Shown piece by piece: positions 1 to 40,015 of a stretch of DNA of 64,000 nt (position 1 is the stretch's first letter; every line of letters starts with the position of its first letter). The notes under the pieces were generated by a model that was given only the letters and a program-made list of their open reading frames with translations, was not told the origin of the DNA and did no database searches. Position numbers and translations under genes: made by a program. The DNA is taken from contig NZ_JADEXQ010000004.1 of assembly GCF_015207035.1 (NCBI RefSeq), positions 1 to 64,000 of the forward strand, given 5' to 3'. The stretch comes from Romeriopsis navalis LEGE 11480 (GTDB lineage Bacteria > Cyanobacteriota > Cyanobacteriia > Leptolyngbyales > Leptolyngbyaceae).

Positions 1-1173
1 GATCAAAAGCGGGGTCTGCGATCGGCGGTAATTTATGCGATGTTTGTGCCGGACAGCTTTGTGCCGCAAACCCGCAGTGAAGTGAATCCGTCCACTGCCG
101 CGATTCCGAGTTTACTCCGTGCGATCGAACCGCGCCCCAGCGATCGGCTAGAGCTGATTTTCATTACCGCTAATGGCAAGTTGAGCCGTCGATCGACGCC
201 TTATCGCCGCCAGGAAATTGCGCAGCAGATCGGTTATTTCTGGTTAACTAACTCGGATATCCAGAATCCCCAAAGTTTTGACCAATTTAGTCGTGAGTTG
301 CAGCAGTGGCTGTTTGCCCCGATTCAAGCCGAATTACAAGCTGCCAAAATTAATGGCTTGATGTACGTCTTGGATCAGGGGTTACGATCATTACCCCTGG
401 CGTCTATGCATAACGGTCAAACATCCTTGTTGCAAGACTATACCGTGAGCGTGATTCCGAGTCTGGGCATGCTCGATCGACGCCAAACGCCGCTGCAAAA
501 TCAGACGACTTTAGCGATGGGGGCTTCCAAATTTCAGCAGTTGGTGCCGTTACCGGCCGTGCCGCAGGAGTTGAAAATGATTCAGCAGCAAGGCTTTTCG
601 GGACAACATTTCCTGAATGAATCGTTTACGTTGGCGAATGTGGTGCAGCAGAAACGCCAGAAACGACCGGGAATTTTGCACTTGGCGACCCATGCAGATT
701 TCAATATTGGCCAGCCGCAGAACTCATTTATTCAACTTTGGGATCAACGCCTGACCTTGGATCAAATTGATCGTCTCAAACTACGTGATACCGACTTGGA
801 ACTTCTGATCTTAAGTGCTTGTAATACAGCTACGGGTGATCCAGTGGCTGAATTGGGGTTTACGGGCATGGCTTCACTGTTTGGTGTACGTACTGCCCTA
901 GGGAGCCTGTGGTCGATCTCGGACTTGGGGACGTTTGCCTTTATGAGCGAATTTTATGGTCACCTGGCTCAGTCACCGTCCCGCGTTGATGCATTGCGAC
1001 AGGCACAATTGGCAATGCGTCAAGGAAAAGTGCGGACTGACAACGGTAAACTGGTGACAAGTCAAGGTAAGCGGCTGGATTTGCCAGAATTTCTCGATGC
1101 TAGCCTTCGCGATGGCGATTTTTCGCATCCCTATTACTGGTCGGGCTTTACGATGGTCGGTAATCCTTGGTAA
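1..1173 (+). CDS. CHAT-domain exoprotein, C-terminal part (5' end outside window)
   Basis: The reading frame is open from base 1, so this is the 3' part of a longer gene; the ATG at 40 is internal, because the codons before it match the paralogue at 1404-7649. About 390 codons are visible and all belong to a CHAT domain, the caspase-like family related to separases and HetF. The probable catalytic pair is the His in ILHLATHAD (codon 231 of the visible frame) and the Cys in LILSACNTATGD (codon 274). The end, YYWSGFTMVGNPW, is typical of cyanobacterial CHAT proteins. The downstream neighbour carries a closely similar CHAT domain, which points to tandem duplication. If the missing N-terminus resembles that neighbour it would be a two-partner-secretion adhesin; this cannot be seen here. 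Confidence 0.9.
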   Translation, partial: DQKRGLRSAVIYAMFVPDSFVPQTRSEVNPSTAAIPSLLRAIEPRPSDRLELIFITANGKLSRRSTPYRRQEIAQQIGYFWLTNSDIQNPQSFDQFSRELQQWLFAPIQAELQAAKINGLMYVLDQGLRSLPLASMHNGQTSLLQDYTVSVIPSLGMLDRRQTPLQNQTTLAMGASKFQQLVPLPAVPQELKMIQQQGFSGQHFLNESFTLANVVQQKRQKRPGILHLATHADFNIGQPQNSFIQLWDQRLTLDQIDRLKLRDTDLELLILSACNTATGDPVAELGFTGMASLFGVRTALGSLWSISDLGTFAFMSEFYGHLAQSPSRVDALRQAQLAMRQGKVRTDNGKLVTSQGKRLDLPEFLDASLRDGDFSHPYYWSGFTMVGNPW

Positions 1174-1403: not shown

Positions 1404-4400
1404 ATGAATCGTTCCCGTTTTTTGCTCGCGCTTATGGCATGGAGCGTCTATGCCGCATCGTTCAATCCATCGGTTTTCGCGCAGCCGATCGTCCCAACAA
1501 CCACTGATACAGTCGTCTCGCCAGTTGATGCCACACAGCAACAATGGCTGATTCAAGGTGGCACCCAGGCGGGTGGTAATCTGTTTCATCAATTTCAAAC
1601 GTTTGGCTTGGACAAGGGCCAAACGGCTACCTTTCGGTCGAATACCACGGTTAATAATATTTTTGGCCGGGTCAATGGTGGCCAGCCCTCGCTGATTAAC
1701 GGGGCGCTACAAGTCAGCGGCGGTAACTCGAATTTATTTTTGATTAACCCCGCTGGGGTGATTTTTGGCCGGGATGCACGATTAGATTTGCCCGGTGCGT
1801 TTAGTGCAACGACAGCGGATGCCTTAGAGTTTGGCAATCAAGGTTGGTTCAATGGTCAGGCGGCAAATCAGTATGGCAATCTCACAGGTGATGTGACGGG
1901 CTATGCTTGGCTCAATCCCAATCCTGGCGCAGTGGTGAATGCTGGTCAGTTGGCGGTGGGGGCGGGCCAGTCCGTGATGCTCAGTGGTGGGCAGGTGATT
2001 AATACGGGCACGATCACTGCGCCTGGTGGTCAGGTAACAATTGCGGCGGTGCCTGGTGAGCGGGTTGTGCGGGTGACTCAGGATAATCAGGTTCTGAGTC
2101 TTGATTTGCCGCTGGTGAGTGATGCGGATTTGGCGGAATTACCCGTGCCAGCTGCAAATCAACGGTTGCCACAATTATTGGCGGGCCGTGAGGTGGCGGA
2201 AGCGACTGGTCTGACGATCGAAAATGGCCAGGTGCGTTTGAGTGCGGGGAAGGCCCCGATCACGGTGGCTGATGGGCAGGCGATCGTGGCCGGTGAACTG
2301 TCTGTTGCTGCGAGTTTGCCGATTGCGGCGGCACCACAAATTGATATTACGGGTGAGCGGATTGATTTGCAGGCCGCAAATTTGAACGCTTCGACGGTCC
2401 AAGGTGGGGGCCAGATTCGGGTGGGCGGTGAGTTCCAGGGACAAGGCGACTTGCCGACGGCTCAGCAAGTCAATGTGGATGCGAGTAGTCGGTTGCAGGC
2501 GGATGCGACCGTGCAAGGTAATGGCGGGCGGGTGATTGTCTGGTCCGATGGCACAACACAATTTGCGGGTGAGGCGACGGCCAAAGGGGGCGCTCAAGGT
2601 GGGAATGGTGGTTTGGTCGAAACATCGGGTCAGCAACAGCTGACGATCGACCCCACAGCCAAAGTGACAACGACGGCGGCTCAAGGTGAAACGGGCGAAT
2701 GGTTACTCGATCCAGCGGATCTCACCGTCGTGGCGGCGGGTGGAACTGCTGCAGTGGTGGGTGGAACGAATTCTCCAACGGCGGCCAGCACGATCGATCG
2801 CGCAACCTTGGAGACTGCCCTCGACGGGACGAACGTGCAACTCCAAGCGACCAACTCGATTACGGTGGGCACAACCGTTGATACAACGGCTAATGCTGCG
2901 GGTGGCAACCTGGAACTCAATGCCCCAACACTAAATCTGAATCAGCGAATCACGCTGCGGACCGGTAGTAACCTCACGGGGACAGCCACGACGGTGAATG
3001 TGGGGGCCAATGGTGGAGTCCAGAATGGCGTCGATGCAGCGGCCGCTGGGGGAACCGTGAATCTGGCGGCAGCGACTTACCGTGAAGGTCAGGTGGTGAC
3101 GATTGATAAATCCCTCACCTTGCAGGGGCAAGGGGCGGGCAATACGATTATCAGTGGGGATGTGGATAGTAATGGTGTGGGTGACTCACGCGGCGTCGAA
3201 ACGCGGGGATCTGGGAACAATATCACCCTACAGCAACTGACGATCGCCGATGCGATGGCCCCTGATACTGGCGGCACTACCGATAATGGTGGAGGCTTGC
3301 AGAACCTCGGTGCGACCGTACAAATCGCCGATGCCGAGTTTCGGAATAATCGCACAATTGATCCGTCTGGTGATGGTGGTGCAATCCATAACCGATCGGG
3401 TTCGATCGCCATTGTCCGGACCCAATTTAATAACAATCAAGCGGCACAGGATGGGGGGGCGATCGATATCGAGCGTGGTTCCGTCACCGTTGCGGATAGC
3501 TTCTTTACGCAAAACCAAGCAGCTAACACGGGCGGCGGGATCGATATTGATCCAAATGGCACAGTTTCGATTGTCAATACCGATTTTGTGAATAATTCCG
3601 CGCTGAATGATGGTGGGGCGATCTTTAATGAAGGGACGGCCACGATCGATACAGCCTCATTTCGATCGAATACGGCGACTGATGATGGTGGGGCGATCAC
3701 CAGTCGCTTCGCTAACAGCCAGCTCATCATTACCGGCAGTAGCTTCGATAGTAATAGCGCCCAAGATAATGGTGGCGGTCTTTACTTGGATGTGCCCGCT
3801 GGAGGTGTACTCTCGCTGAGCCAAAACTCATTTCTGAATAATAGTAGCGGTGCATCGGGCGGCGGTTTATTTAAGACGAATTCGGCTGACTTGACCATCG
3901 CGAATACGTTGTTCGAGCGTAACACTGCTACGGAGCATGGTGGCGGTTTGTTGGTTGGCGGTGGTGGCTTGAGCACGCTCACCGATAGCAATGTTCTGCA
4001 AAATACGGCCGGCATCGATGGGGGTGGTATTCGCTTAAACGGTAGCAATCTGGCAATCAACAATAGCCGGATTCTGACGAATCAAGCCCAATTTGGGGGG
4101 GGCTTAGAGCTGAGTCTTGGGAGTACGGCCCAGGTGAACGATAGTCTGTTTCAAGGCAATACTAGCTCGTCCAATGGTGGGGCGATTCAGATTGATGATA
4201 CTTCGACTGCAACGGTGACCAATAATAGTCGTCTACTGAATAATCAAGCGAATGGTCAAGGTGGAGCCATCGCTGTCAACGGTAGTTTGAGTCTTGATAC
4301 TGTTCTGCTTCAAGGCAATACTGCAGCAGGCGCTGGCGGTGGGCTTTTCTTGGGTGGCACGGGGGGGACTGTTTCAATTCGTTCCACAACAGTTAACGCT

Positions 4401-7400
4401 AATACCTCTCTGGGTGGCCCCGGCGGTGGCTTGAGTCATCAAGGGGGACAAACGACGACCATCGTCGATAGCCTGTTTAACTCGAATGTGGCGTCAGGCA
4501 ATCGGAACGGTGGCGCCTTAGATTTATTCCCTACCGTAGGCGGAACGACAGTCCAGATTGAGAATACGACCCTCTCCAGTAATCGCGGTGGCAATTTCGG
4601 GGGGGCGCTTTCCCAGGCCGGAACGGTGCAGACAACGCTCAATAATGTCACAGTGGCGAATAATACTGCCAGCACTGGTGGTGGTCTAGCTAATGTCTTC
4701 GGCGCTAGTTTGACGGTGCAAAATACCATTGTGGCTGGAAACACTGCCGCGAATGATGCCGATATCGCTGGCTCAATCACGAGCCTGGGCAATAATCTGG
4801 TGCAAAACCGGGCAACGAGCACGGGCTATGTGAGTGCTGATTTGGCCGATGGCACAGACCCGCTCCTGCTATCCTTAGCCAATAACGGCGGCTTGACGCT
4901 GACCCATGCGGTACGGGCCAATAGCTTAGCGGTCAATGGTGGGAATGCGAGTGCCACCGCGGCGGATCAGCGGGGTTTGGCGGCTATTGGTCAACGCGAT
5001 ATCGGGGCCTACGAGTTAGATAATAATCTCACCTTCGTCGTCACGGGTAGTGGCCAAACCCAGACAGTCAATCAGACCTTTGCTAACCCGGTTGGGGTGA
5101 CTGTGACGGATTCCTTGGGGGCGGTGGTTGCCGGTTTAGACATTGCTGTGACGGCTTCTACGACTGGCGCAAGTGCGGGTCTTGGCACATTGCAAACGGA
5201 TAGTAGTGGGGTTGCTTCAACAACTGCTACGGCCAATACAGTTGCTGGGAGCTATACCGTGAACTTGGGCATTGCGAGCAATGCATCCATTGGCTCGGTT
5301 TCCCTAACGAATACCCCTGATGTGCCTAACCAGATTGCGGTACTGAACGGCAACAACCAGAGCACAGTGGTGAACACGGCGTTTGCGAATCCGCTACAGT
5401 TCGCAGTGACCGATCAGTTTGGCAATCCGATTCCCTTTGAGTCGGTCGGCATCAGTGTTCCGGGTAGCGGTGCGAGTGCTACTGCCGCCAATGGTTTTGA
5501 TCTCAATGCGCTGCTCTTCGTGACTGATAATTCAGGGCAAGCGACCGTCAACCTCGATGCCAATACAATTGCTGGTAGCTATACGGTTGGGCTGACGTCT
5601 GGAAGCCTTAGCAACAATACAACGCTCACCAATCTGCCTGATGTCCCGGATCAGCTAGTGGTGAATAATGGCGACAATCAGAGTAGCGTTGTAAATACTG
5701 CCTTTGCAAATCCGCTTCAGGTGACGGTGACGGATCAGTTCGGAAACGCGGTGCCCGGCGCGACGGTTAATGTTAACCTGCCGGGCACTGGGGCCAGTGC
5801 CAATGCCGGCGCAATCGCTTTAACTACCGATGGGTTGGGGCAGGCCACTACCGCTCTAACGGCGAATACCGTTGCCGGTAATTATCCTGTGGGATTGACC
5901 GCGGGGAGCGCCAACAATAGTTTGAATCTCACCAACCTCCCGGATGCCCCAGCGCAGTTAAACTTGCTCAATGGGAATGGTCAGAGCACCCTCGTGAATA
6001 CTGCATTTGCGGAGGATCTGCTGGTTCAGGTAACGGATCAATATGGGAATTTACTGCCTGATGTAACCGTGACTTTCACGGCGCCTGCTACCGGCTCGAG
6101 CACCACAGTGACGAGTTTCTCGATGCAAACGAATGCTGCGGGTCAGGGTCAAGCGGCGATCGTCGCTAATGGCGTGGCGGGTACGTATCAGCTCTTGGCG
6201 ACATCTGGACCGCTGACTCAAGTGGTGAGTCTTGAAAACCAGTCCGAACCGGTGGAGCCATCTCCCGGACCAGGGATTCCACCATTGCCAACCAACCCCC
6301 CACTCACGAACGGGAATCCCGGCAATACCAATAATCAACCGATTATCTCGACTTTTCCATCGAATGCGATCGACGTTGTTGACGCTGATTTTAGCGCGGA
6401 CTACGTGAGGCAATTTGGTAACTCAGTCAAAACCCAAAAAGTTACTGGGGCGAATATTCAAAATCTCCTCGCGGATCTCGATCGCCAACGTGGGATTCGA
6501 ACCGCCGTGATCTATGCCATGTTTGTGCCGGACGTCTTTACGCCCCAAACGGAGGCTGTTTCAGTCGCAAATGCCACCAAAATTCCGACGCTGCTGCGGG
6601 CGGTTGAGCCCCGCGATGATGATCGCTTGGAGTTGATCTTCATTACTGCAAATGGCAAACTCCAGCGGCGATCGACCCCCTATCGTCGCCGGGAAGTCGC
6701 TGAAAAACTGTCATATTTTTGGTTGAGCAACTCGGATGTAGAAAATGCTGAAAGCTTTGATCAATTTGGTCAGCTATTTCAGCAGTGGTTGTTTGCCCCG
6801 ATTCAGACCGAGCTGGAAGCCGCCAAGATTAATGGCCTGATGTACGTGCTTGATCAGGGGTTGCGATCGATTCCATTGGCGGCAATGCGAACGCCACAGA
6901 GTAGTGTGCTGGAGCAATATACGGTGAGCGCTATTCCCAGCTTAGGGATGCTCGATCGGCGGCAGACAATTTTGCAGAATCAAACGATTTTGGCAACGGG
7001 GGCATCAGAGTTTGACAAGCTTGTAGCGCTACCCGCTGTGCCCGCTGAATTAGCGATGATTCAGCAGCAGGGATTTCGGGGGACGACGTTGTTGAATGAG
7101 CAATTTACGTTGGATAATGTGGTCCGGCAACGACGGCAGCAGCGACCGGGGATTTTGCATTTGGCGACCCATGCGGACTTCAATTCCGGGGCACCGAGCA
7201 ATTCATTTATTCAATTTTGGGATCAGAAATTGACCTTGGATCAAATCGCGCGTCTGGATTTGCGGGATGCGGACTTAGAATTGCTGATTTTAAGTGCTTG
7301 TAATACGGCTGCCGGGAATGACACAGCGGAACTTGGGTTTACCGGGATGGCGTCGCTGTTTGGTGTCCGAACAGCGTTAGGGAGTTTATGGGCTGTCTCC

Positions 7401-7649
7401 GACCTCGGGACCTTTGCCTTTATGAGTGAGTTTTATGGCCAGTTGGCCGCGACGCCATCGCGGGCAGAGGCCTTGCGGAAGACCCAGTTGGCGATGCAGC
7501 AGGGTAAGGTGCGGATTGAGCAGGGCGCATTGATCACAACCGGACAGATTTTAGATTTGCCGTTAGCCTTGCAAGCCGCAACGCAAGATGGCAACTTTGC
7601 CCATCCTTACTACTGGTCGGGCTTCACAATGGTGGGTAACCCTTGGTAG
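1404..7649 (+). CDS. Giant exported TPS adhesin with C-terminal CHAT domain
   Basis: A 2081-residue protein. Residues 1-26 are a signal peptide with likely cleavage after FA in NPSVFA. A filamentous-haemagglutinin-type secretion domain follows (about 30-165), with the motif NLFLINPAGVIFG, then more beta-helix to about 430. Residues about 540-1190 are polymorphic-outer-membrane-like repeats with recurring NGGAI/NGGGL motifs. About 1210-1620 hold four or five Ig-like (Big_1-like) repeats, each with a TVTDQFGNxxP-type motif, followed by a Pro/Asn-rich linker. The CHAT domain spans about 1650-2081, with probable catalytic His1923 (ILHLATHAD) and Cys1966 (LSACNTAAG). The secretion domain implies export by a TpsB/Omp85 partner, which is not in the window. 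A caspase-like domain on a secreted adhesin suggests processing of itself or of partners, but activity is not demonstrated. Confidence 0.93.
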   Translation: MNRSRFLLALMAWSVYAASFNPSVFAQPIVPTTTDTVVSPVDATQQQWLIQGGTQAGGNLFHQFQTFGLDKGQTATFRSNTTVNNIFGRVNGGQPSLINGALQVSGGNSNLFLINPAGVIFGRDARLDLPGAFSATTADALEFGNQGWFNGQAANQYGNLTGDVTGYAWLNPNPGAVVNAGQLAVGAGQSVMLSGGQVINTGTITAPGGQVTIAAVPGERVVRVTQDNQVLSLDLPLVSDADLAELPVPAANQRLPQLLAGREVAEATGLTIENGQVRLSAGKAPITVADGQAIVAGELSVAASLPIAAAPQIDITGERIDLQAANLNASTVQGGGQIRVGGEFQGQGDLPTAQQVNVDASSRLQADATVQGNGGRVIVWSDGTTQFAGEATAKGGAQGGNGGLVETSGQQQLTIDPTAKVTTTAAQGETGEWLLDPADLTVVAAGGTAAVVGGTNSPTAASTIDRATLETALDGTNVQLQATNSITVGTTVDTTANAAGGNLELNAPTLNLNQRITLRTGSNLTGTATTVNVGANGGVQNGVDAAAAGGTVNLAAATYREGQVVTIDKSLTLQGQGAGNTIISGDVDSNGVGDSRGVETRGSGNNITLQQLTIADAMAPDTGGTTDNGGGLQNLGATVQIADAEFRNNRTIDPSGDGGAIHNRSGSIAIVRTQFNNNQAAQDGGAIDIERGSVTVADSFFTQNQAANTGGGIDIDPNGTVSIVNTDFVNNSALNDGGAIFNEGTATIDTASFRSNTATDDGGAITSRFANSQLIITGSSFDSNSAQDNGGGLYLDVPAGGVLSLSQNSFLNNSSGASGGGLFKTNSADLTIANTLFERNTATEHGGGLLVGGGGLSTLTDSNVLQNTAGIDGGGIRLNGSNLAINNSRILTNQAQFGGGLELSLGSTAQVNDSLFQGNTSSSNGGAIQIDDTSTATVTNNSRLLNNQANGQGGAIAVNGSLSLDTVLLQGNTAAGAGGGLFLGGTGGTVSIRSTTVNANTSLGGPGGGLSHQGGQTTTIVDSLFNSNVASGNRNGGALDLFPTVGGTTVQIENTTLSSNRGGNFGGALSQAGTVQTTLNNVTVANNTASTGGGLANVFGASLTVQNTIVAGNTAANDADIAGSITSLGNNLVQNRATSTGYVSADLADGTDPLLLSLANNGGLTLTHAVRANSLAVNGGNASATAADQRGLAAIGQRDIGAYELDNNLTFVVTGSGQTQTVNQTFANPVGVTVTDSLGAVVAGLDIAVTASTTGASAGLGTLQTDSSGVASTTATANTVAGSYTVNLGIASNASIGSVSLTNTPDVPNQIAVLNGNNQSTVVNTAFANPLQFAVTDQFGNPIPFESVGISVPGSGASATAANGFDLNALLFVTDNSGQATVNLDANTIAGSYTVGLTSGSLSNNTTLTNLPDVPDQLVVNNGDNQSSVVNTAFANPLQVTVTDQFGNAVPGATVNVNLPGTGASANAGAIALTTDGLGQATTALTANTVAGNYPVGLTAGSANNSLNLTNLPDAPAQLNLLNGNGQSTLVNTAFAEDLLVQVTDQYGNLLPDVTVTFTAPATGSSTTVTSFSMQTNAAGQGQAAIVANGVAGTYQLLATSGPLTQVVSLENQSEPVEPSPGPGIPPLPTNPPLTNGNPGNTNNQPIISTFPSNAIDVVDADFSADYVRQFGNSVKTQKVTGANIQNLLADLDRQRGIRTAVIYAMFVPDVFTPQTEAVSVANATKIPTLLRAVEPRDDDRLELIFITANGKLQRRSTPYRRREVAEKLSYFWLSNSDVENAESFDQFGQLFQQWLFAPIQTELEAAKINGLMYVLDQGLRSIPLAAMRTPQSSVLEQYTVSAIPSLGMLDRRQTILQNQTILATGASEFDKLVALPAVPAELAMIQQQGFRGTTLLNEQFTLDNVVRQRRQQRPGILHLATHADFNSGAPSNSFIQFWDQKLTLDQIARLDLRDADLELLILSACNTAAGNDTAELGFTGMASLFGVRTALGSLWAVSDLGTFAFMSEFYGQLAATPSRAEALRKTQLAMQQGKVRIEQGALITTGQILDLPLALQAATQDGNFAHPYYWSGFTMVGNPW

Positions 7650-30707: not shown

Positions 30708-33700
30708 CTAGCGCCGTTGATTTGGGCCATAGAATAGTCCCGCATCAAACTTTTGGGTTGCGGCTTTCAATAAGGCCGGGGCATTTGCCCCATTTCCACT
30801 GGCTGGCTGCCAACGGCCAATGCTGCCAGTGCCCGTTTGTCCGCCGATCGGTGCGCCGAGGCTAACGTAGTAGAGACTGTCATCCGGGCCAACGGCCAGG
30901 TTGACGACGCCAAACAAGTTGTCGGCGAACAGCTGTGACCCGGAGACTTGCCCGGTTTGATCAAAGAACAGCGTATTGACCGTGCCGCGACTGGCGTTGG
31001 CATAAAACAGCGCGTTGTCATAGAAGGCCGGGAAGCTGTTTCCTGTATAGAACTCACCCATGATGATTGCGTCCCCACCGGGATTCTGATGGCGAATGGC
31101 AAATAGAGGGTCTTCCTCGTTAATCGCCGTGCTCCCGGAATAGAAGGGTCTGACCCCAGAGAGGCTTTGATAATCCGGCGTTCTGATGCTCGTGGGATTG
31201 CCACTGCCATTCAGACCGCCTTCGTAGGCAGGCCACCCGAAGTTTTTGCCGCGTCCGGTATTCACTTCTTCCCAACTAAACCAGCCGACATCGCCAATTA
31301 CGGGCAGGTTGGTTTTGGGATCAAAGGTAAAGCGGAAAGGATTGCGCACACCCAGGTTGAATACCTTCGATCGGTTGCTATTCAGATTGCGGTTGTATTT
31401 ACTGTCAAAAGGCGAACCGGTGTTGACGTTGTAGAAGGGATTGTCGGTCAAACCCTGACCGGTATCAGGATCGATCCGCAGGATTTTGCCTGATAGGTTA
31501 TCAATATCCTGGACGCGCACTGTGCGGGGGTCCGCAAAGTTGTAGGAAGTGCCATCGCCGATACTCACATACAGCTTGCCGTCGGCCCCAAATTGCACCG
31601 CTCCCACACTGTGGGATTCGCTATCACCGGCGATATAGTCCTGGATGCTTTCGGCGGTGTTGTTGCCACTGCTGTTGCGCACAAACCCTGACGCTGGAAT
31701 ATTGGCATTGGCGGGGCGGGTGCTATTCGAGTCAAAGCCCCGTGTATTGGCAAAGGTACTGCGTTTACCCAGTAAGACTCTACTGGAACCGGATTTGGCC
31801 CGCCATTGGCCCCCGACAAACTCCGCTTCAACCCGAATTAGGCGCCCCGGACGATTACCGGGTTTATCGCGCCCACCGAAGGTCGGGTTATAGCCCGGAC
31901 GATTGGTTTGACCGGCTTCTGCTGGATCGTAGGTATAGAGTAAGTAAACAAAGGGCCGGCTGCCGTTGAATTCGGGATCGAGGGTCATGCCCAGCAAGCC
32001 CCGATCGCGCACCCCATTCACCTGCGATCGCAGGTCAATAAACGGTGAGGACTGGAGTTGATTGTTGTTGGCATTGGCCACTTTGACCAGACCATTTTGT
32101 TCGGCAATGAACATAAATTGGCCGTTGGGAGTCCAGTCGATCGCCGTCGGTGTGGTGAGGCCGCTGATTAAGGTTTGACGATTAAAGTTGCCGGGATCGT
32201 TATCCAGAATATTCAGAACAGCATTTTTCTGATTTCCCAAGCTGCCCCCCGTGGGGTTGCTCAGCACTAAGTTGACCGTTTCGTTGCGTTCCCCCAGCGT
32301 GTCATTAGTGACGCGGACATTGAAGGTTTTGCGGGTTTGACCCGCGGCAAATTGTAGGGTGCCACTGGTTGCTGTATAGTCGCTACCGGCGGTGGCGCTG
32401 CCATTGCGGGTGCGATAGCGGACGGTGGCGCTGCTGCTGGTGCTACCGCTGCGCTCCACGGCGATCGTGGCCTGACCGCCATCTTCTTTGAGGCTGTAGG
32501 CGGCTTCGCTAAAAGCAAACTGCGACTGGGCCGCATCGTCATCGAGGATTGTGACACCAACAGTGCGTTTGGTGCCTAAGGCCGCTCCGGTCGCACTGAG
32601 AATCGCAAAACTAAAGGACTCCGTGGACTCGGCAATGTTGTCGTTGACGATCGGAATCGCCACATTTTTACTAGTTTGGCCATCATTGAAGGTCAATGTA
32701 CCGGTGCGGTTAGTGAAGTCACTGCCTCGCTTGGCCGTGTCTTCGTTGGTAATATATTCCACCGTGGCGACGCCGTCGCTGCCATTCACCCGATTGACCC
32801 GCACGGTCGCCGTGCCAGCATCTTCCCGTACGGTGACGCCGGTCGTATCGACTTCAAACACACCGGAATTATTACTACCGCCTCCGGCATATTGGAAATA
32901 GCCGTTGGCATGGAGAATCTCACTGCGGCGGAAGCCGGGTGTGATGCCATCGGCGGGTTTCCAGGTGCCCGTGGAAAAGACGTTCGCGGCTTCAGTCTGG
33001 TAGGTGGTGCCATCGACTTTAACGAAGTCCACCACAAGGTTGGTATCAATGCCATTGGCTGGATCGTAACGGTCATTCAGGAAATTTACCCGGACTTGGT
33101 CGGCTGTGACATTGCCGTTGGCCTGATAGCGAAAAGTTTTGAAGCTTTTGGTGGCTGCAAAGCTAGAAACCGTATTGCCAGCAATTTCGAGGGTGAACTG
33201 TTCGGTGCCTTCATCGCCGCGCGCCCGGATTTCGACAATGTCGCCGTTGCCATTGCCGGCGCTAGCAAACTGAAAATAACCATTGGAGTGGAGGATTTCG
33301 CTCTGACGGAACCCTGGAACTACGCCATCGCTGGGTTTCCAAGTGCCAGTTGAGAAGACTGTATCGGACTCCGTTTGATAGGTGGTGTTGCCCACCTTAA
33401 TTCGATCGACCCGGAGGTTGCGATCGATGCCATTTGCCGGGTCGTATAGGTCATTGCTAAAAGCGACTCGGATGCGGCCTGGATCAACATTTGCCCCATT
33501 GTAGGTATAGGCCTGGAATTGCCGATTGTTAAAGTTACCGCCAATGTTGTTCCACGTTTGGACGGTTTGACCGTCAATCTGGAGCTGCATCTGCTCCGCG
33601 TTGGTTGCCCCCGCCGCGTAAACCGTGATCGGCAAAATGTCGCTGTATGCCGCTTGGATTTCTGGGCTAAATGGAATCGTCGCCTCGATCGTGCCAGTTG

Positions 33701-34202
33701 CCGTTTCCAGTATCCAGTCACCCCCGAGGGCGGCATTACCGGTCAGATCGGTGGAGGCCGCGATATCGGCCTGAGTGAGTTGGCTCAGTTGATTGATAAA
33801 CGATAGACCGGTGCTGCTGCCAGCGATATTGCAGCCGTAGAGCAAAATATCGGCATCATCGCTGAGAAATTCTCCCCAACTCTGGAACTGGTTCTCGTAT
33901 TGCGCCAGGTTATCCGCATCGATACGGCTACTGCCGAGCTGTAGTCCACCGGCTGTGCCGTGAGATACGAGGTGAATTGCGCCAATGTCCTGGCGGCTCG
34001 CGAGGGCTTCTGTAATCTGGGTGATGCCATCACGGTGTTGATCGAGTAAAACGACCTCGGCACTCGCAACTGAAGCGGCAAGATTCTGGTAAGCGTTGAG
34101 GGCCGTATCGATAAAAACGAGTTGTGTATCACCATTGAGGCTGAATGTGCTGCTCGATCGCCTTGGATCAAGGGCAGATTGGGGATCAGAAAGAAACTGC
34201 AT
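30708..34202 (-). CDS. DUF4347 - carbohydrate-binding - Calx-beta - PQQ sugar dehydrogenase-like exoprotein
   Basis: A 1164-residue multidomain protein. Residues 1-190 are DUF4347, with AIHLVSHGTAG (His81) and ILLYGCNIAGS (Cys124). About 192-445 hold two copies of a Ca-dependent, xylan-binding-type module, each containing NDxYDPANGID and VFSTGTWKP. Two Calx-beta repeats follow (about 450-665), each ending in VTILDDD or LNILDND. The last 490 residues are a six-bladed soluble glucose dehydrogenase-type propeller, with LTTPTAIDWTPNGQFMFIAEQ, ESHSVGAVQFGADGKLYVSIGDG and NPFRFTFDPKTNLPVIGDVGW. Such propellers use PQQ to oxidise sugars. DUF4347 proteins are usually exported giants; no classical signal peptide is seen. 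A close paralogue is at 34913-40015. Confidence 0.9.
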   Translation of the reverse strand: MQFLSDPQSALDPRRSSSTFSLNGDTQLVFIDTALNAYQNLAASVASAEVVLLDQHRDGITQITEALASRQDIGAIHLVSHGTAGGLQLGSSRIDADNLAQYENQFQSWGEFLSDDADILLYGCNIAGSSTGLSFINQLSQLTQADIAASTDLTGNAALGGDWILETATGTIEATIPFSPEIQAAYSDILPITVYAAGATNAEQMQLQIDGQTVQTWNNIGGNFNNRQFQAYTYNGANVDPGRIRVAFSNDLYDPANGIDRNLRVDRIKVGNTTYQTESDTVFSTGTWKPSDGVVPGFRQSEILHSNGYFQFASAGNGNGDIVEIRARGDEGTEQFTLEIAGNTVSSFAATKSFKTFRYQANGNVTADQVRVNFLNDRYDPANGIDTNLVVDFVKVDGTTYQTEAANVFSTGTWKPADGITPGFRRSEILHANGYFQYAGGGSNNSGVFEVDTTGVTVREDAGTATVRVNRVNGSDGVATVEYITNEDTAKRGSDFTNRTGTLTFNDGQTSKNVAIPIVNDNIAESTESFSFAILSATGAALGTKRTVGVTILDDDAAQSQFAFSEAAYSLKEDGGQATIAVERSGSTSSSATVRYRTRNGSATAGSDYTATSGTLQFAAGQTRKTFNVRVTNDTLGERNETVNLVLSNPTGGSLGNQKNAVLNILDNDPGNFNRQTLISGLTTPTAIDWTPNGQFMFIAEQNGLVKVANANNNQLQSSPFIDLRSQVNGVRDRGLLGMTLDPEFNGSRPFVYLLYTYDPAEAGQTNRPGYNPTFGGRDKPGNRPGRLIRVEAEFVGGQWRAKSGSSRVLLGKRSTFANTRGFDSNSTRPANANIPASGFVRNSSGNNTAESIQDYIAGDSESHSVGAVQFGADGKLYVSIGDGTSYNFADPRTVRVQDIDNLSGKILRIDPDTGQGLTDNPFYNVNTGSPFDSKYNRNLNSNRSKVFNLGVRNPFRFTFDPKTNLPVIGDVGWFSWEEVNTGRGKNFGWPAYEGGLNGSGNPTSIRTPDYQSLSGVRPFYSGSTAINEEDPLFAIRHQNPGGDAIIMGEFYTGNSFPAFYDNALFYANASRGTVNTLFFDQTGQVSGSQLFADNLFGVVNLAVGPDDSLYYVSLGAPIGGQTGTGSIGRWQPASGNGANAPALLKAATQKFDAGLFYGPNQRR

Positions 34203-34515
34203 AGGTGCGATACCTGCGGAAATGTCGATGGATCTAAGTCATGCCGGATGGCTGCATGTGTTGCTTGAATGAATGTGTTGATTCACGAGCGTTTGATCGA
34301 TCTGCCACAGCTGTTCTGGTGGTCTTGAGCGATCAATGGCTTGGATTGATGTGATGAGGCCGCAACCAGAAATGGCGGCGCCGACTACATCGATTACTTT
34401 TGCTGGGTTGGGATTACAGTGTTGGTGAAGCGAGATAAATTGCGGGATTAGCCACAAAATTTGCCAAATCATAGTTGAGGCTGTAGGAAACCTAGCATTT
34501 TTGTCATTTTGCTTA

Positions 34516-34535
34516 CCTCAGTCCTGTGAGAGATT
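34516..34535 (-). promoter_or_regulatory. 20-base element shared by both DUF4347 genes (copy 1)
   Basis: CCTCAGTCCTGTGAGAGATT on the plus strand, 314 bases upstream of the 34202 start codon. The same 20 bases with one change occur at 40098-40117, 83 bases upstream of the paralogue. Confidence 0.55.
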
Positions 34536-34823
34536 GCTGATCCGCTACATTGCTCCTGGGGATCGCAGTGCAAACACCACACTTTGCTGTGACTGAATCC
34601 AGCGGGAGCTAGATGTGATGGGGCAGTTGCCCAATTTTGCTCATCCGGAGGATAGAGCGATAAATCACCGGGAATCTATCTCCGACGATGGCGCTATGTC
34701 CTTGGGGCGATTGCCATCCCACTCTGTATAGAGTGGTTTCCTGTTGTTGCTCTTTCTCCAGCCTGATGGCGGTGCCGCCCGTAGCGTGGGTGAATTTGTC
34801 TGGCAAAGTAAATCCCCTCGCGC

Positions 34824-34856
34824 CACGGGCGGTGCCGGGATCAACGAGGGGATGCA
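34824..34856 (-). terminator. Possible terminator of the 34913-40015 gene
   Basis: On the minus strand ATCCCCTCG pairs with CGAGGGGAT around a GC-rich loop and TTACTTT follows. It is about 55 bases past the stop codon; the long loop makes it uncertain. Confidence 0.45.
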
Positions 34857-34912
34857 TGGATTTTAGTTTAAGGATTGAGTGGTCAGCTGAAACTAGCTGC
34901 CACTAGCTGCCA

Positions 34913-37900
34913 CTATTGCACCGGTGATTGAATGGTTTGGGAAAAGAGTCCTGGCACAAATTGGGTCGGGTTATTTCCCTGCCCCGAACGGTTAATTGGG
35001 GCGTTCGGACCGTTGCCCGTGGTGGGCACCCACCGGCCAATGCTGCCTGTACCCGTGGTGCCACCGATCGGCACACCTAAGTTGACATAATACAGACTGC
35101 CATCCGGCCCCGTTTCCAATTCGGTAATCCCGAAGAGGTTATCGGCAAATAACTGTGTGCCGGAAACTTGACCTGTCTGGTCGAAGAAGACGGTGTTAAC
35201 CGTGCCACGACTGGCATTGGTGTAGAACAATGCATTGTCGTAGAACACCGGGAAGGTATTGCCGGTATAGAAGTCACCCATGATCACTGCATCACCACCA
35301 CCGGACTGATGCTCAAAGGCAAACAGCGGTGTTTGAGCGGTAATCGTCTGACTGCCACCCGGGTAGAATGGTGTCACCTGTGGGAGGTTCTGATAGTTTG
35401 CGGTTCGGAGGTTAATTGGATTGCCGAGACTATCTAATCCCCCTTCGTAGGCGGGCCAGCCGAAGTTTTTGCCTGCACCCGTATTAATCTCTTCCCAGTT
35501 AAACCAACCGACATCGCCAATCACGGGGAGATTGGTCGTAGGGTCGAAGGTAAAGCGGAACGGATTGCGTAGACCCAGGTTAAATACCTTCGATCGATTA
35601 CTGGTGGGGTCATTATTAAACTGGGTGTCAAACGGTGAACCGGTGGTGACGTTGTAGAACGGATTATCGGCGAGGCCGTTCCCCGTATCGGGGTCAATCC
35701 GCAGCATTTTGCCCGAAAGGTTGTCAATATCCTGGACCCGCACCGTGCGCGGATCGGCGAAGTTATAGGATGTCCCATCGCCGATCGTCACGTACAGTTT
35801 GCCATCTGCCCCAAATTGCACCGAGCCGACACTATGGGATTCACTATCGCCAGCGAGATAGTCTTGAATGCTTTCAGCCGTGTTGTTGCCGTTGGTATCC
35901 CGGACAAAACCGGAGGCAGGAATGTTGGCGTTGGCTGGTAGGGTGCTGTTGGCGTCAAAGCCACGAGTATTGGCAAAGTTGCTGTTCTTGCCCAGCAGAA
36001 TAATTTCTGAACCGGCTTTGACTTGATAATTGCCGTTCACCAATTCAGCTTCTACCCGAATCAGCCGGGCCGGACGATTGCCGGCTTTATCCTGCCCCCC
36101 AAAAGTCGGATTGTAGCCCGGACGTGTGGGGTCAGCCGCCTCGGGCGGATCGTAGGTAAACAGCAAGTAGACATAGGGGCGACTACCATTAAAATCTGGG
36201 TCCAGGGTCATACCCAGGAGACCGCGATCTCGCACGCCATTGACTTGACTACGCAGGTCAATAAATGGAGTTGACTGTAATACCCCAGTTGCGGCATCGG
36301 CAACTTTGACTAAGCCATTTTGCTCAGAAATAAATAGGGTTTGACCATCCGGGGTCCATTCCAGTGCTGTCGGGGTCGTTAAGCCCGTAATCAAAGCCTC
36401 GCGGTTAAAGCTACCAGGATCATTATCGAGGATGTTGAATATGGCTGTGGACTGAGCGCCGATCGTGCCGCCGATCGGATTGCTCAGTTGTAGATTGACA
36501 CTTTCGTTGCGTTCTCCATCGACATCATTAATGACGTTGATATTGAAGATTTTGCTGGTTTCACCATTGGCAAAGTTGAGGGTGCCAGTGGTGGCTGTAT
36601 AGTCGCTGCCTGCGGTAGCAGTACCATCACTCGTGGCATAGTTAACGCTAGCACTGCCGTTGGTGTTACCGCTGCGGGTGACGGTAATCGCAGCTTGACC
36701 ACCGTCTTCTTTGAGTTCGTAGGCTGATTGACTAAAGGTAAAACTGGAATTGGCGGCATCGTTATCGAGGATATTGACACTCACAGTTCGCTTTGTGCCT
36801 AAGGCCGCTCCCGTTGCACCGAGAATTGCAAAACCGAAGGATTCCGTTGGTTCAACGATCGTATCTTCCAGAATCGTAATGTCCACCGTTTTGCTGGTTT
36901 CACCATCCGCGAAGGTGAGCGTGCCGGTTTGGTAGGTAAAGTCGACATCGCGCGTGGCGGTATCTTCATTTGTGACGTAGTCGACCGTTGCCACTCCACT
37001 ACTACCATTGACACGATTTACGGTGACTGTGGCTGTCGCATCACCTTCACTTACCGTCACCCCGGTCACATCGACTTCAAATACACCCGGTAAGCCGCTA
37101 CCACCAGTACTAAAGAGTTGACTCTGGGGAATAATTTGGCTGATTTGGCTGGCACTGCTCCAACCGAGTTGGGCCACGGCCCCACCGCCGTTTTCGTAGT
37201 ACTCCATGCGAATGTCGTACTTTTCCCCAGCTTGTAGGGCGATCGGGGTGCCGTTAACCAAGGTTGGACCTTGGTCTTGGAATTGATCAATCACCGGTTG
37301 ACCATTGACGAACAGTCGCACGCCATCATCGGTGGTGGTGAAGAAGGTGTAGGTCTCGTCGTAGATCGCTTGAACTTGGCCGGTCCAGACCACCGAGAAG
37401 GTATTTACGCCAATGCCACTGGCCGGTGAGCCACTGCCCCAGTTGAAGTCCACGGTTGAGTCAACGCGGGATAAGACTTCGTTGGTGAAATCAATATTGT
37501 TGTAATACGTGCCGGTTAAACCATCCCCGTTACCGGTTGGCGCATCGTCATCCAGAATGCTGATTGTTGTGCTGCTGTTGGTGCCTAATGTTGTGCCGGC
37601 TGTGGGATTGCTCAGCGCGAGGCTAAAGGTTTCGGTCGGTTCGATTACCGTATCGTTCAGAATCGGAATGCTGACTGTGGCGCTGGTGTCACCGGCGGCA
37701 AAATTCAGAGTGCCATTACTGCCGGTGAAGTCACTACCGGCGGTGGCGGTGCCCGCCGTGGTGGCGTAGTCGACGCTCGCGGCGGTAGAACTGTCACCCG
37801 TCCGATTCACGGTAACCGTGACCGCGCCAGCTGTCTCACTGATGGAAACGGTGGGCTCGGCGACACCAAAGCTGCTACTACCGCTATCACTAAATAATCT

Positions 37901-40015
37901 GACCTGCGGCACAATTTGCCGATTTTGGCTGGCGCTCTCCCAACCGAGCTGGGCTACGGCGCCCCCGCCATTTTCGAAGTATTCCATGCGAATGTCATAC
38001 TTCTGATCGGCGACGAGGACGATCGGTGTGCCATTGACTGTCGTTGGTGCTTGATCTTGGAATTGATTAATGACCTGCTGGCCATCGATAAATAGCTTGA
38101 CGCCATCATCGGTGGTGGTGAAGAAAGTGTAGGCTTCGCTATAGATCGGCTGCACTTGGCCGGTCCAAACCACGGAGAAGGTATCGTTGCCGATATTGCT
38201 GGCGGGTGAGCCGGTGCCCCAATCAAAACTGACGGTGTTGTCAACTCGTGACAGCACTTCATTTGTGAAATTGATGTTGTCGTAATAGGTGCCTGTCAAA
38301 CCGTCACCACTGCCGGTGGGTGGTGGTGGCGGTGGTGGTGCCGCACCAGCGTAGAGCTGACTGGTGGGAACGACTTGCCGGGCTTGGCTGGCGCTCGACC
38401 ATTCCAATTTGGCATCGGCACCGCCGCCGTTTTCGTAATATTCCAGCACAATGTCGTATTTTTGGTCAGCCGCGAGGGTAATGCTCCCAGTGCTCGTGGT
38501 ACTCGCCTGGTCAACAAACTGATCAACAATTAAATTGCCATTGATCCGCAGCCGCACCCCATCATCAGTGGTGGTGTAGAAGGTGTAGGTCTCGTTATAT
38601 TGGGCCTCAATTTCACCGCTCCAACGAACGGAGAAGGTGTCATTGCCAATCACGGGGTCGGGCGAGCCAGTGCCCCAATTGAAATTGACGGTGCTGTCGG
38701 TACGAATTAGCTGGCTATTGGTGAAGTTGAGGTCGTCGAAATATTCCCCGAGCAGGCCGGTGCCGGTGCCCGGATTGCCGCCACCAGTAATCGGTGTGGC
38801 ATTGGTATCGAGTTCCCAGTTCTGAATTTCTTGAATATTGCGCAGACCGCCAGTACCGCCGGTAAAGCCAAAGTAAGCCTTTGAGCCCACTGTGGCCGCA
38901 AGATCGATCGTCTCCGAGAGTAGAGCCGTGGCGGGCTTGGTGTTGCCGGTGGCGAGGTAAACATCCAGTTGATTTGTTGCCCCGTCGTAGTCGACCCAAG
39001 CGTTAATCGCGCTGCCGCTATTGAGATCAATACTGGTACTGGCATTGCTGAGTCCAGTGGTGCTGCCATTCACCAGCAGCGACAGGTGATTATTGTTCGG
39101 ATCGCTGCTGCCGTTGTCATAGGTGTCAAACTCGATCGCGATGCTATTGCCAATTCCGGCATAGCCCACCGAGCCACCGCTACTTCCCAAGGCGGCGGCA
39201 CCATTGCTGTCGTTCTGGATCACGAAGGTAAAGCCATCGGCACCCGCTGTCCCATCACTGCCGCTGAGCCGGAATTGGAATTGGGTGTTAAAGCTGGTGC
39301 TGCCGTTGATTTCGAAGGCCGTGTTATAAAACGCGCTACCCGCTTGGTTATTCTCATTGGGCGTCAGGCGTAGTCGGTTACCCGCTTGGGAGGCATTGCC
39401 GTTGGTCTGAATCCCAGCGATGCTATTGAAATTATCGTAGTCAAATCCCGCAAATACACCTTGATAACTGCCCTGAATAGACTGGCTGAGGGCTAAGGTT
39501 GCGTCGATCGCCCCAGTTGATACTTCTAACTCCCAGTCACCCCCCAGTTGCGCATTACCGGTTAAATCGGTTGATGCGGCAATGTCGGCACCGGTGAGTT
39601 GACTCAGTTGATCGATAAAGTCCCTGCCCGCTGCTGCAACATCGCAGCCGTAGAGCAAGATATCGGCGTCATCCGTCAGGGCTTGTTCCCAAGACTGGAG
39701 TTGAGCGGCGTATTGATTCAGGCGGTTGGCACTGAGCTGACTATTGCCCAGTTGTAATGCGCCAGCGGTGCCGTGGGAGATCAGATGAATTGCCCCAATA
39801 TCGCGACGATCGGCAAGGGCCGTCGTAATCTGTTCAATCCCATCCTCGTTGTGATCGAGCAGCACAACTTCTGCCCCAACCACCGATGCGGCTAAACTTT
39901 GGTAAGCATTCAAATTTGTGTCGATAAACACAAGTGATTGAGGGTTGATTGTCCCCAGGGCGGCGGATGAGGCGGCGGCCTCTAGGGAAAGTTGGGAGTC
40001 AGGAAAAACTTGCAT
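34913..40015 (-). CDS. DUF4347 - lectin - PA14x3 - Calx-beta - PQQ sugar dehydrogenase-like giant exoprotein
   Basis: A 1700-residue paralogue of the neighbour. Order: DUF4347 (1-190; AIHLISHGTAG with His81, ILLYGCDVAAAG with Cys124); an L-type-lectin-like domain (about 190-405; DGFTFVIQND, VDYDGATNQLDVYL); PA14 (about 415-560, 570-710 and 820-965; each with TYTFFTTTDDGVRLFVNG-like strands); Calx-beta (about 715-815, 970-1080, 1085-1185); and the soluble glucose dehydrogenase-type propeller (about 1190-1670; ESHSVGSVQFGADGKLYVTIGDG). A Pro run in the first PA14 linker comes from GGT-type repeats near 38321-38345. Lectin and PA14 modules suggest binding to extracellular polysaccharide, with oxidation by the propeller if PQQ is present. 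Function is inferred. Confidence 0.92.
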   Translation of the reverse strand: MQVFPDSQLSLEAAASSAALGTINPQSLVFIDTNLNAYQSLAASVVGAEVVLLDHNEDGIEQITTALADRRDIGAIHLISHGTAGALQLGNSQLSANRLNQYAAQLQSWEQALTDDADILLYGCDVAAAGRDFIDQLSQLTGADIAASTDLTGNAQLGGDWELEVSTGAIDATLALSQSIQGSYQGVFAGFDYDNFNSIAGIQTNGNASQAGNRLRLTPNENNQAGSAFYNTAFEINGSTSFNTQFQFRLSGSDGTAGADGFTFVIQNDSNGAAALGSSGGSVGYAGIGNSIAIEFDTYDNGSSDPNNNHLSLLVNGSTTGLSNASTSIDLNSGSAINAWVDYDGATNQLDVYLATGNTKPATALLSETIDLAATVGSKAYFGFTGGTGGLRNIQEIQNWELDTNATPITGGGNPGTGTGLLGEYFDDLNFTNSQLIRTDSTVNFNWGTGSPDPVIGNDTFSVRWSGEIEAQYNETYTFYTTTDDGVRLRINGNLIVDQFVDQASTTSTGSITLAADQKYDIVLEYYENGGGADAKLEWSSASQARQVVPTSQLYAGAAPPPPPPPTGSGDGLTGTYYDNINFTNEVLSRVDNTVSFDWGTGSPASNIGNDTFSVVWTGQVQPIYSEAYTFFTTTDDGVKLFIDGQQVINQFQDQAPTTVNGTPIVLVADQKYDIRMEYFENGGGAVAQLGWESASQNRQIVPQVRLFSDSGSSSFGVAEPTVSISETAGAVTVTVNRTGDSSTAASVDYATTAGTATAGSDFTGSNGTLNFAAGDTSATVSIPILNDTVIEPTETFSLALSNPTAGTTLGTNSSTTISILDDDAPTGNGDGLTGTYYNNIDFTNEVLSRVDSTVDFNWGSGSPASGIGVNTFSVVWTGQVQAIYDETYTFFTTTDDGVRLFVNGQPVIDQFQDQGPTLVNGTPIALQAGEKYDIRMEYYENGGGAVAQLGWSSASQISQIIPQSQLFSTGGSGLPGVFEVDVTGVTVSEGDATATVTVNRVNGSSGVATVDYVTNEDTATRDVDFTYQTGTLTFADGETSKTVDITILEDTIVEPTESFGFAILGATGAALGTKRTVSVNILDNDAANSSFTFSQSAYELKEDGGQAAITVTRSGNTNGSASVNYATSDGTATAGSDYTATTGTLNFANGETSKIFNINVINDVDGERNESVNLQLSNPIGGTIGAQSTAIFNILDNDPGSFNREALITGLTTPTALEWTPDGQTLFISEQNGLVKVADAATGVLQSTPFIDLRSQVNGVRDRGLLGMTLDPDFNGSRPYVYLLFTYDPPEAADPTRPGYNPTFGGQDKAGNRPARLIRVEAELVNGNYQVKAGSEIILLGKNSNFANTRGFDANSTLPANANIPASGFVRDTNGNNTAESIQDYLAGDSESHSVGSVQFGADGKLYVTIGDGTSYNFADPRTVRVQDIDNLSGKMLRIDPDTGNGLADNPFYNVTTGSPFDTQFNNDPTSNRSKVFNLGLRNPFRFTFDPTTNLPVIGDVGWFNWEEINTGAGKNFGWPAYEGGLDSLGNPINLRTANYQNLPQVTPFYPGGSQTITAQTPLFAFEHQSGGGDAVIMGDFYTGNTFPVFYDNALFYTNASRGTVNTVFFDQTGQVSGTQLFADNLFGITELETGPDGSLYYVNLGVPIGGTTGTGSIGRWVPTTGNGPNAPINRSGQGNNPTQFVPGLFSQTIQSPVQ

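Follow-up and report, generated by a model that had tools for sequence, protein, structure and literature searches.

DUF4347 is known from PA0256, in which the domain was noted in 2021 (PMC8262886). PA0256 has been described as Tce1, a type VI effector and putative cysteine protease whose activity is only putative; in 2026, its authors proposed a His186/Cys240 dyad and superposed it on TcdB (PMC13323088). Tce2, which is structurally similar to Tce1, requires its cysteine for toxicity to yeast (PMC13323088). The original prediction for the locus described here took DUF4347 to be a domain of unknown function, which is outdated: since 2026, the structure of one DUF4347 protein has been available, together with a proposal for its His/Cys dyad. 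Our reading of the domain as a clan CD peptidase is partly known already, and it extends this recent work rather than being the first of its kind. In the papers searched, we found nothing that links DUF4347 in exoproteins to caspase-like activity.

Clan CD also includes the C80 peptidases, which cut after leucine; the cysteine protease domains of MARTX and clostridial toxins have a basic pocket for inositol hexakisphosphate. Other clan members are ligases or sortase-like (for example, legumain has ligase activity, and PorU is another case).

Two giant exoproteins in tandem

The window (the whole stretch of 64,000 nucleotides that was analysed) contains two genes for giant exoproteins on the minus strand. 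According to the list of open reading frames, protein A has 1,164 amino acids (positions 30708–34202) and protein B has 1,700 amino acids (positions 34913–40015). Pfam places DUF4347 (PF14252) at residues 28–190 of protein A (33633–34121; E = 3e-60) and at residues 28–187 of protein B (39455–39934; E = 2e-59). Both domains were also found by the genome profile scan, and AlphaFold2 models additionally support the one in protein B. The two proteins score 203 and 200.5 bits against the DUF4347 profile, which is above the curated threshold of 24.6 bits.

Downstream of DUF4347, protein A has two CBM60-like domains, two Calx-beta domains, and a glucose/sorbosone dehydrogenase-like propeller. Protein B has a legume-type lectin domain (residues 191–406), three PA14 domains, three Calx-beta domains, and the same type of propeller. 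The proteins thus share the DUF4347 head and the Calx-beta/sugar-dehydrogenase end and differ in the middle (CBM60 versus lectin and PA14), as though a tandem duplication had been followed by a swap of the middle. Contig C5 carries a third paralogue (L136), which combines lectin and PA14 with the dehydrogenase end.

The motif was first read from the sequence as a histidine and a cysteine at the same positions in both proteins, and this is correct: S80-H81-G82 and Y122-G123-C124 occur at identical positions in A and B. The codons for His81, the presumed catalytic base, are at 39773–39775 in protein B and at 33960–33962 in protein A; those for Cys124, the presumed nucleophile, are at 39644–39646 and 33831–33833 (all on the minus strand and placed by residue position). 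Because A and B are tandem paralogues, with 66% identity across the domain, this agreement is weak evidence by itself.

The genome that contains the window encodes phycobilisome proteins, which marks it as cyanobacterial, and has 11 DUF4347 domains by the genome profile scan. It also has 40 matches to CHAT, so clan CD domains are abundant in it. Within the window, a CHAT domain is found at the end of a two-partner-secretion giant (1404–7649, plus strand), and a separate CHAT protein adjoins it (40–1173, plus strand).

Conservation of the histidine and the cysteine

Among the sampled genomes, DUF4347 is present in 43 of 146 from the phylum of the window and in 90 of 349 from a second phylum, which entered the analysis via a Rhizobiales contig (a locus from a single-protein scan). 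We aligned 104 DUF4347 domains from the two phyla; the median frequency of the top residue per column was 0.46. C124 is the most conserved column (104 of 104 domains), and H81 is present in 102 of 104. The invariance expected of a catalytic pair was thus borne out. Also highly conserved are G82 (103/104), W161 and L163 (101/104 each), and D32 (100/104). The two natural losses of H81 (Phe in L021 and Glu in L037) both retain the cysteine. L037 is one of the few DUF4347 domains that lie far from the N-terminus of their own frame. Four residues before H81, at residue 77 (39785–39787 in protein B), His is found in 84 of the 104 domains and Gln in 15.

C124 is the only cysteine in each of the window proteins, so an intramolecular disulfide is impossible. 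Relatives are similarly poor in this residue: in the DNA examined, the regions downstream of DUF4347 have 22 cysteines in 69,840 residues, or 0.3 per 1,000, and in 84 of 93 relatives these regions lack cysteine altogether. For 13 other proteins from the window, the figure is 13.8 per 1,000. An invariant cysteine in an otherwise cysteine-free protein fits a catalytic nucleophile. As judged from these sequences, the conservation of C124 and the scarcity of other cysteines point to catalysis rather than to a disulfide.

Predicted fold and correspondence with Tce1

AlphaFold2 models of the domain had a pLDDT of 90 (with 40 sequences) and 96 (with 103 sequences). In the models, strand 73–79 is followed by H81 and strand 113–122 by C124, which is the order of clan CD. 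For both models, the top PDB match from Foldseek is Tce1 (9qpe chain G; E = 2.2e-5 and 2.7e-5), followed by legumain and caspases (E down to 1.5e-4); the protease domain of TcdA is at rank 32 and 25. The TM-scores are modest (0.57 versus Tce1 and about 0.4 versus legumain), and GDSL-family esterases appear among the lower-ranked matches.

Searching PDB sequences with a single domain sequence (phmmer) gave nothing useful, and the link to Tce1 at the sequence level came via the family profile. The profile places H81 on residue 77 of the Tce1 chain and C124 on residue 131. As the paper on Tce1 resolves residues 110–310, these are His186 and Cys240. By this alignment with a dyad that has been superposed on that of TcdB, H81 and C124 would be expected to lie close in space.

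C80 and CHAT as relatives

Besides DUF4347 itself, Peptidase_C80 is the only Pfam family with matches in many members (24 of 40, best E = 1.9e-5). The C80 cut-off is 23.8 bits. Protein A at full length scores 20.5 bits and the domain of protein B scores 17.4 bits, both below it; the domain of protein A alone reached 25.0 bits in the genome search. We do not file the window proteins as C80 members. By hhalign, the comparison with three cyanobacterial C80-like domains gave a probability of 1.3%, a weak match with only three sequences, and paired the same His and Cys. (One of the three sequences had one altered residue, KAS to KSS, outside the aligned core and motif.) The comparison with 14 CHAT domains from the genome of the window gave a moderate probability of 32% and again paired the same His and Cys; none of the 40 DUF4347 members had a CHAT match in Pfam. 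Among Pfam families, the C80-type cysteine protease domains are the closest to DUF4347.

The DUF4347 domain is very acidic (median net charge of -14) and has no strongly conserved basic columns. As activation by inositol hexakisphosphate involves a basic pocket in the toxin domains, it is unlikely for DUF4347.

Taken together, the models, the profiles, and the conservation make it nearly certain that DUF4347 has the fold and the dyad of a clan CD peptidase. The original prediction of clan CD is backed by the fold, the C80 profile, the conservation, and the correspondence with the dyad of Tce1/PA0256, and the predicted structure that was proposed as its check has the strand order of the clan and matches Tce1, legumain, caspases, and the TcdA protease domain.

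What the domain may do in giant exoproteins

Our best explanation, to which we assign a probability of roughly 0.55, is that DUF4347 is a clan CD protease on a protein that is exported by type I secretion and that it cuts in cis near the boundary of the domain. DUF4347 would be a compact cysteine peptidase with H81 as the base and C124 as the nucleophile, and D32, with which the first strand ends, might be a third catalytic residue. If the giant is exported C-terminus first, then an N-terminal protease would leave the cell last; it would most likely cut near its own C-terminal boundary and thereby free or process the lectin/PA14/dehydrogenase part outside the cell. As for the parts of this explanation, DUF4347 is probably an active peptidase on the exported protein, given its dyad. 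That it processes its own chain, as the original prediction had it, is a little less than an even bet, and a sorting or anchoring role is improbable.

The position of the domain is similar across the family. Counted from the stop codon that precedes it, DUF4347 begins within 60 residues in 50 of 105 cases and within 120 residues in 87 of 105, which implies that the domain is mostly N-terminal, in open frames that reach 14,920 codons. One 4,156-codon open frame in genome G288 has two DUF4347 domains (L075 and L099) that are about 2,700 codons apart. The cargoes vary: lectin, PA14, or CBM60 with a sugar dehydrogenase, a kelch oxidase-like protein, FG-GAP, collagen-like sequence, cadherin, and Ig repeats.

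This variety bears on whether the protease instead acts in trans, with the lectin, CBM, and PA14 domains bringing it to a polysaccharide, a surface, or a competitor, where it would cut foreign or neighbouring surface proteins. The carbohydrate-binding modules of the window proteins are consistent with such a role, and so is the DUF4347 protein Tce1, a putative type VI effector, along with the cysteine-dependent toxicity of Tce2 to yeast (PMC13323088). However, in most members the N-terminal domain is fixed on cargoes that differ greatly, from enzymes to cadherin/Ig adhesins. A common role in processing fits this arrangement better than one particular foreign target would, and we consider action in trans to be unlikely.

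The lone cysteine would also be compatible with a transpeptidase or anchoring enzyme, in which an acyl intermediate on Cys124 would link the exoprotein to a second protein or to a surface molecule, and clan CD has ligases and sortase-like members. Against this, we did not find a conserved acceptor motif or a partner gene, so that a joining reaction seems very unlikely.

For cleavage in cis, the end of the domain offers a candidate site. Leu occupies position 188 in 93 of 104 domains and Phe in 8 of 104, and position 189 is most often Ala; in the window proteins, Pfam starts the next domain at 191–192. In protein B, the tail here reads V187-F188-A189 (39449–39457, minus strand), which lies at the domain boundary and may be the point of cleavage. 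Most endopeptidases refuse Pro at P1', and Pro follows at position 189 in 18 of 103 members (17%), including protein A (IL followed by P), which leaves the cleavage site unsettled. The tail around position 188 may simply be structural. We also considered a cut on the N-terminal side, as in the clostridial toxins; the region ahead of the domain varies in both length and sequence, which makes such a cut less likely.

Type I export is supported for part of the family. Genes of the HlyB/HlyD type adjoin DUF4347 genes in three genomes (G125, G217, and G433), which were chosen for this linkage; among the matches listed, the linkage is not general. Other DUF4347 members have RTX repeats. The window proteins have no match to RTX repeats in Pfam, and the HlyD genes of their genome are on other contigs than the window. 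By analogy to their relatives, the window proteins are likely to be exported by type I secretion. Beside one DUF4347 gene, we noticed a type I secretion ATPase (L138:9657–12674) in which an N-terminal cyclic-nucleotide-binding domain is accompanied by a C39-like domain.

An N-terminal site in likely type I substrates is also what one would expect if DUF4347 were a folded plug or retention module, like that of LapA, that holds the protein back in the type I channel, with catalysis being minor or lost. But a domain that only plugs the channel would have no need for the invariant pair of His (102/104) and Cys (104/104) in proteins otherwise nearly free of cysteine, and we think that this role is hardly probable. 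Nor did we retain the idea that the cyanobacterial proteins are substrates of LapG, as the LapG family (PF06035) was not found in any of the 15 cyanobacterial genomes with DUF4347, including that of the window. It is present in 11 of 19 other genomes with DUF4347. The absence of LapG leaves room for an on-board protease and proves nothing.

Finally, it is extremely improbable that the His and Cys are structural or bind a metal and that the caspase resemblance is a generic Rossmann-like match: the strand order is common to many alpha/beta folds, the TM-scores are modest, and esterases are among the lower matches, but the top matches are clan CD peptidases, the His and Cys fall on the dyad of Tce1, and C80 is the one consistent relative in Pfam.

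If DUF4347 is a working protease, then what has been a widespread "unknown" domain would provide a processing step, open to experiment, in the release or maturation of giant adhesins and surface enzymes by bacteria. This step would extend to cyanobacteria, where LapG was not found in the 15 genomes with DUF4347, and one family would unite a type VI cysteine-protease effector with the heads of exoproteins. A broader proposal is that DUF4347 exoproteins form a large class of type I substrates, whose N-terminal caspase-like protease would excise itself outside the cell, after the leucine at the end of the domain, for release or maturation without LapG; in this full form, we consider the idea doubtful.

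Comparison with known systems

The caspases and legumain (C14 and C13) match DUF4347 in fold, but with a sequence identity of only about 10%. In CHAT (PF12770), the ATHG/SAC pair aligns with SHG/YGC by profile comparison, whereas the CHAT domain is longer (289 positions). The C80 domains of MARTX and the clostridial toxins have the same order of His then Cys and are likewise carried by large exported proteins, but they are internal rather than N-terminal, and DUF4347 scores around or below the C80 cut-off. Like DUF4347, the LapA-type module is an N-terminal part of giant type I secretion substrates; unlike the LapA/LapG system, DUF4347 brings its own dyad. Tce1 (PA0256, PDB 9qpe) differs in context, as it is a stand-alone cargo of Hcp3 with 310 amino acids rather than the N-terminal domain of a giant, and it is only about 20% identical. 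Nevertheless, it is the best match in the PDB by both profile and fold, and its dyad aligns exactly with that of the DUF4347 exoproteins.
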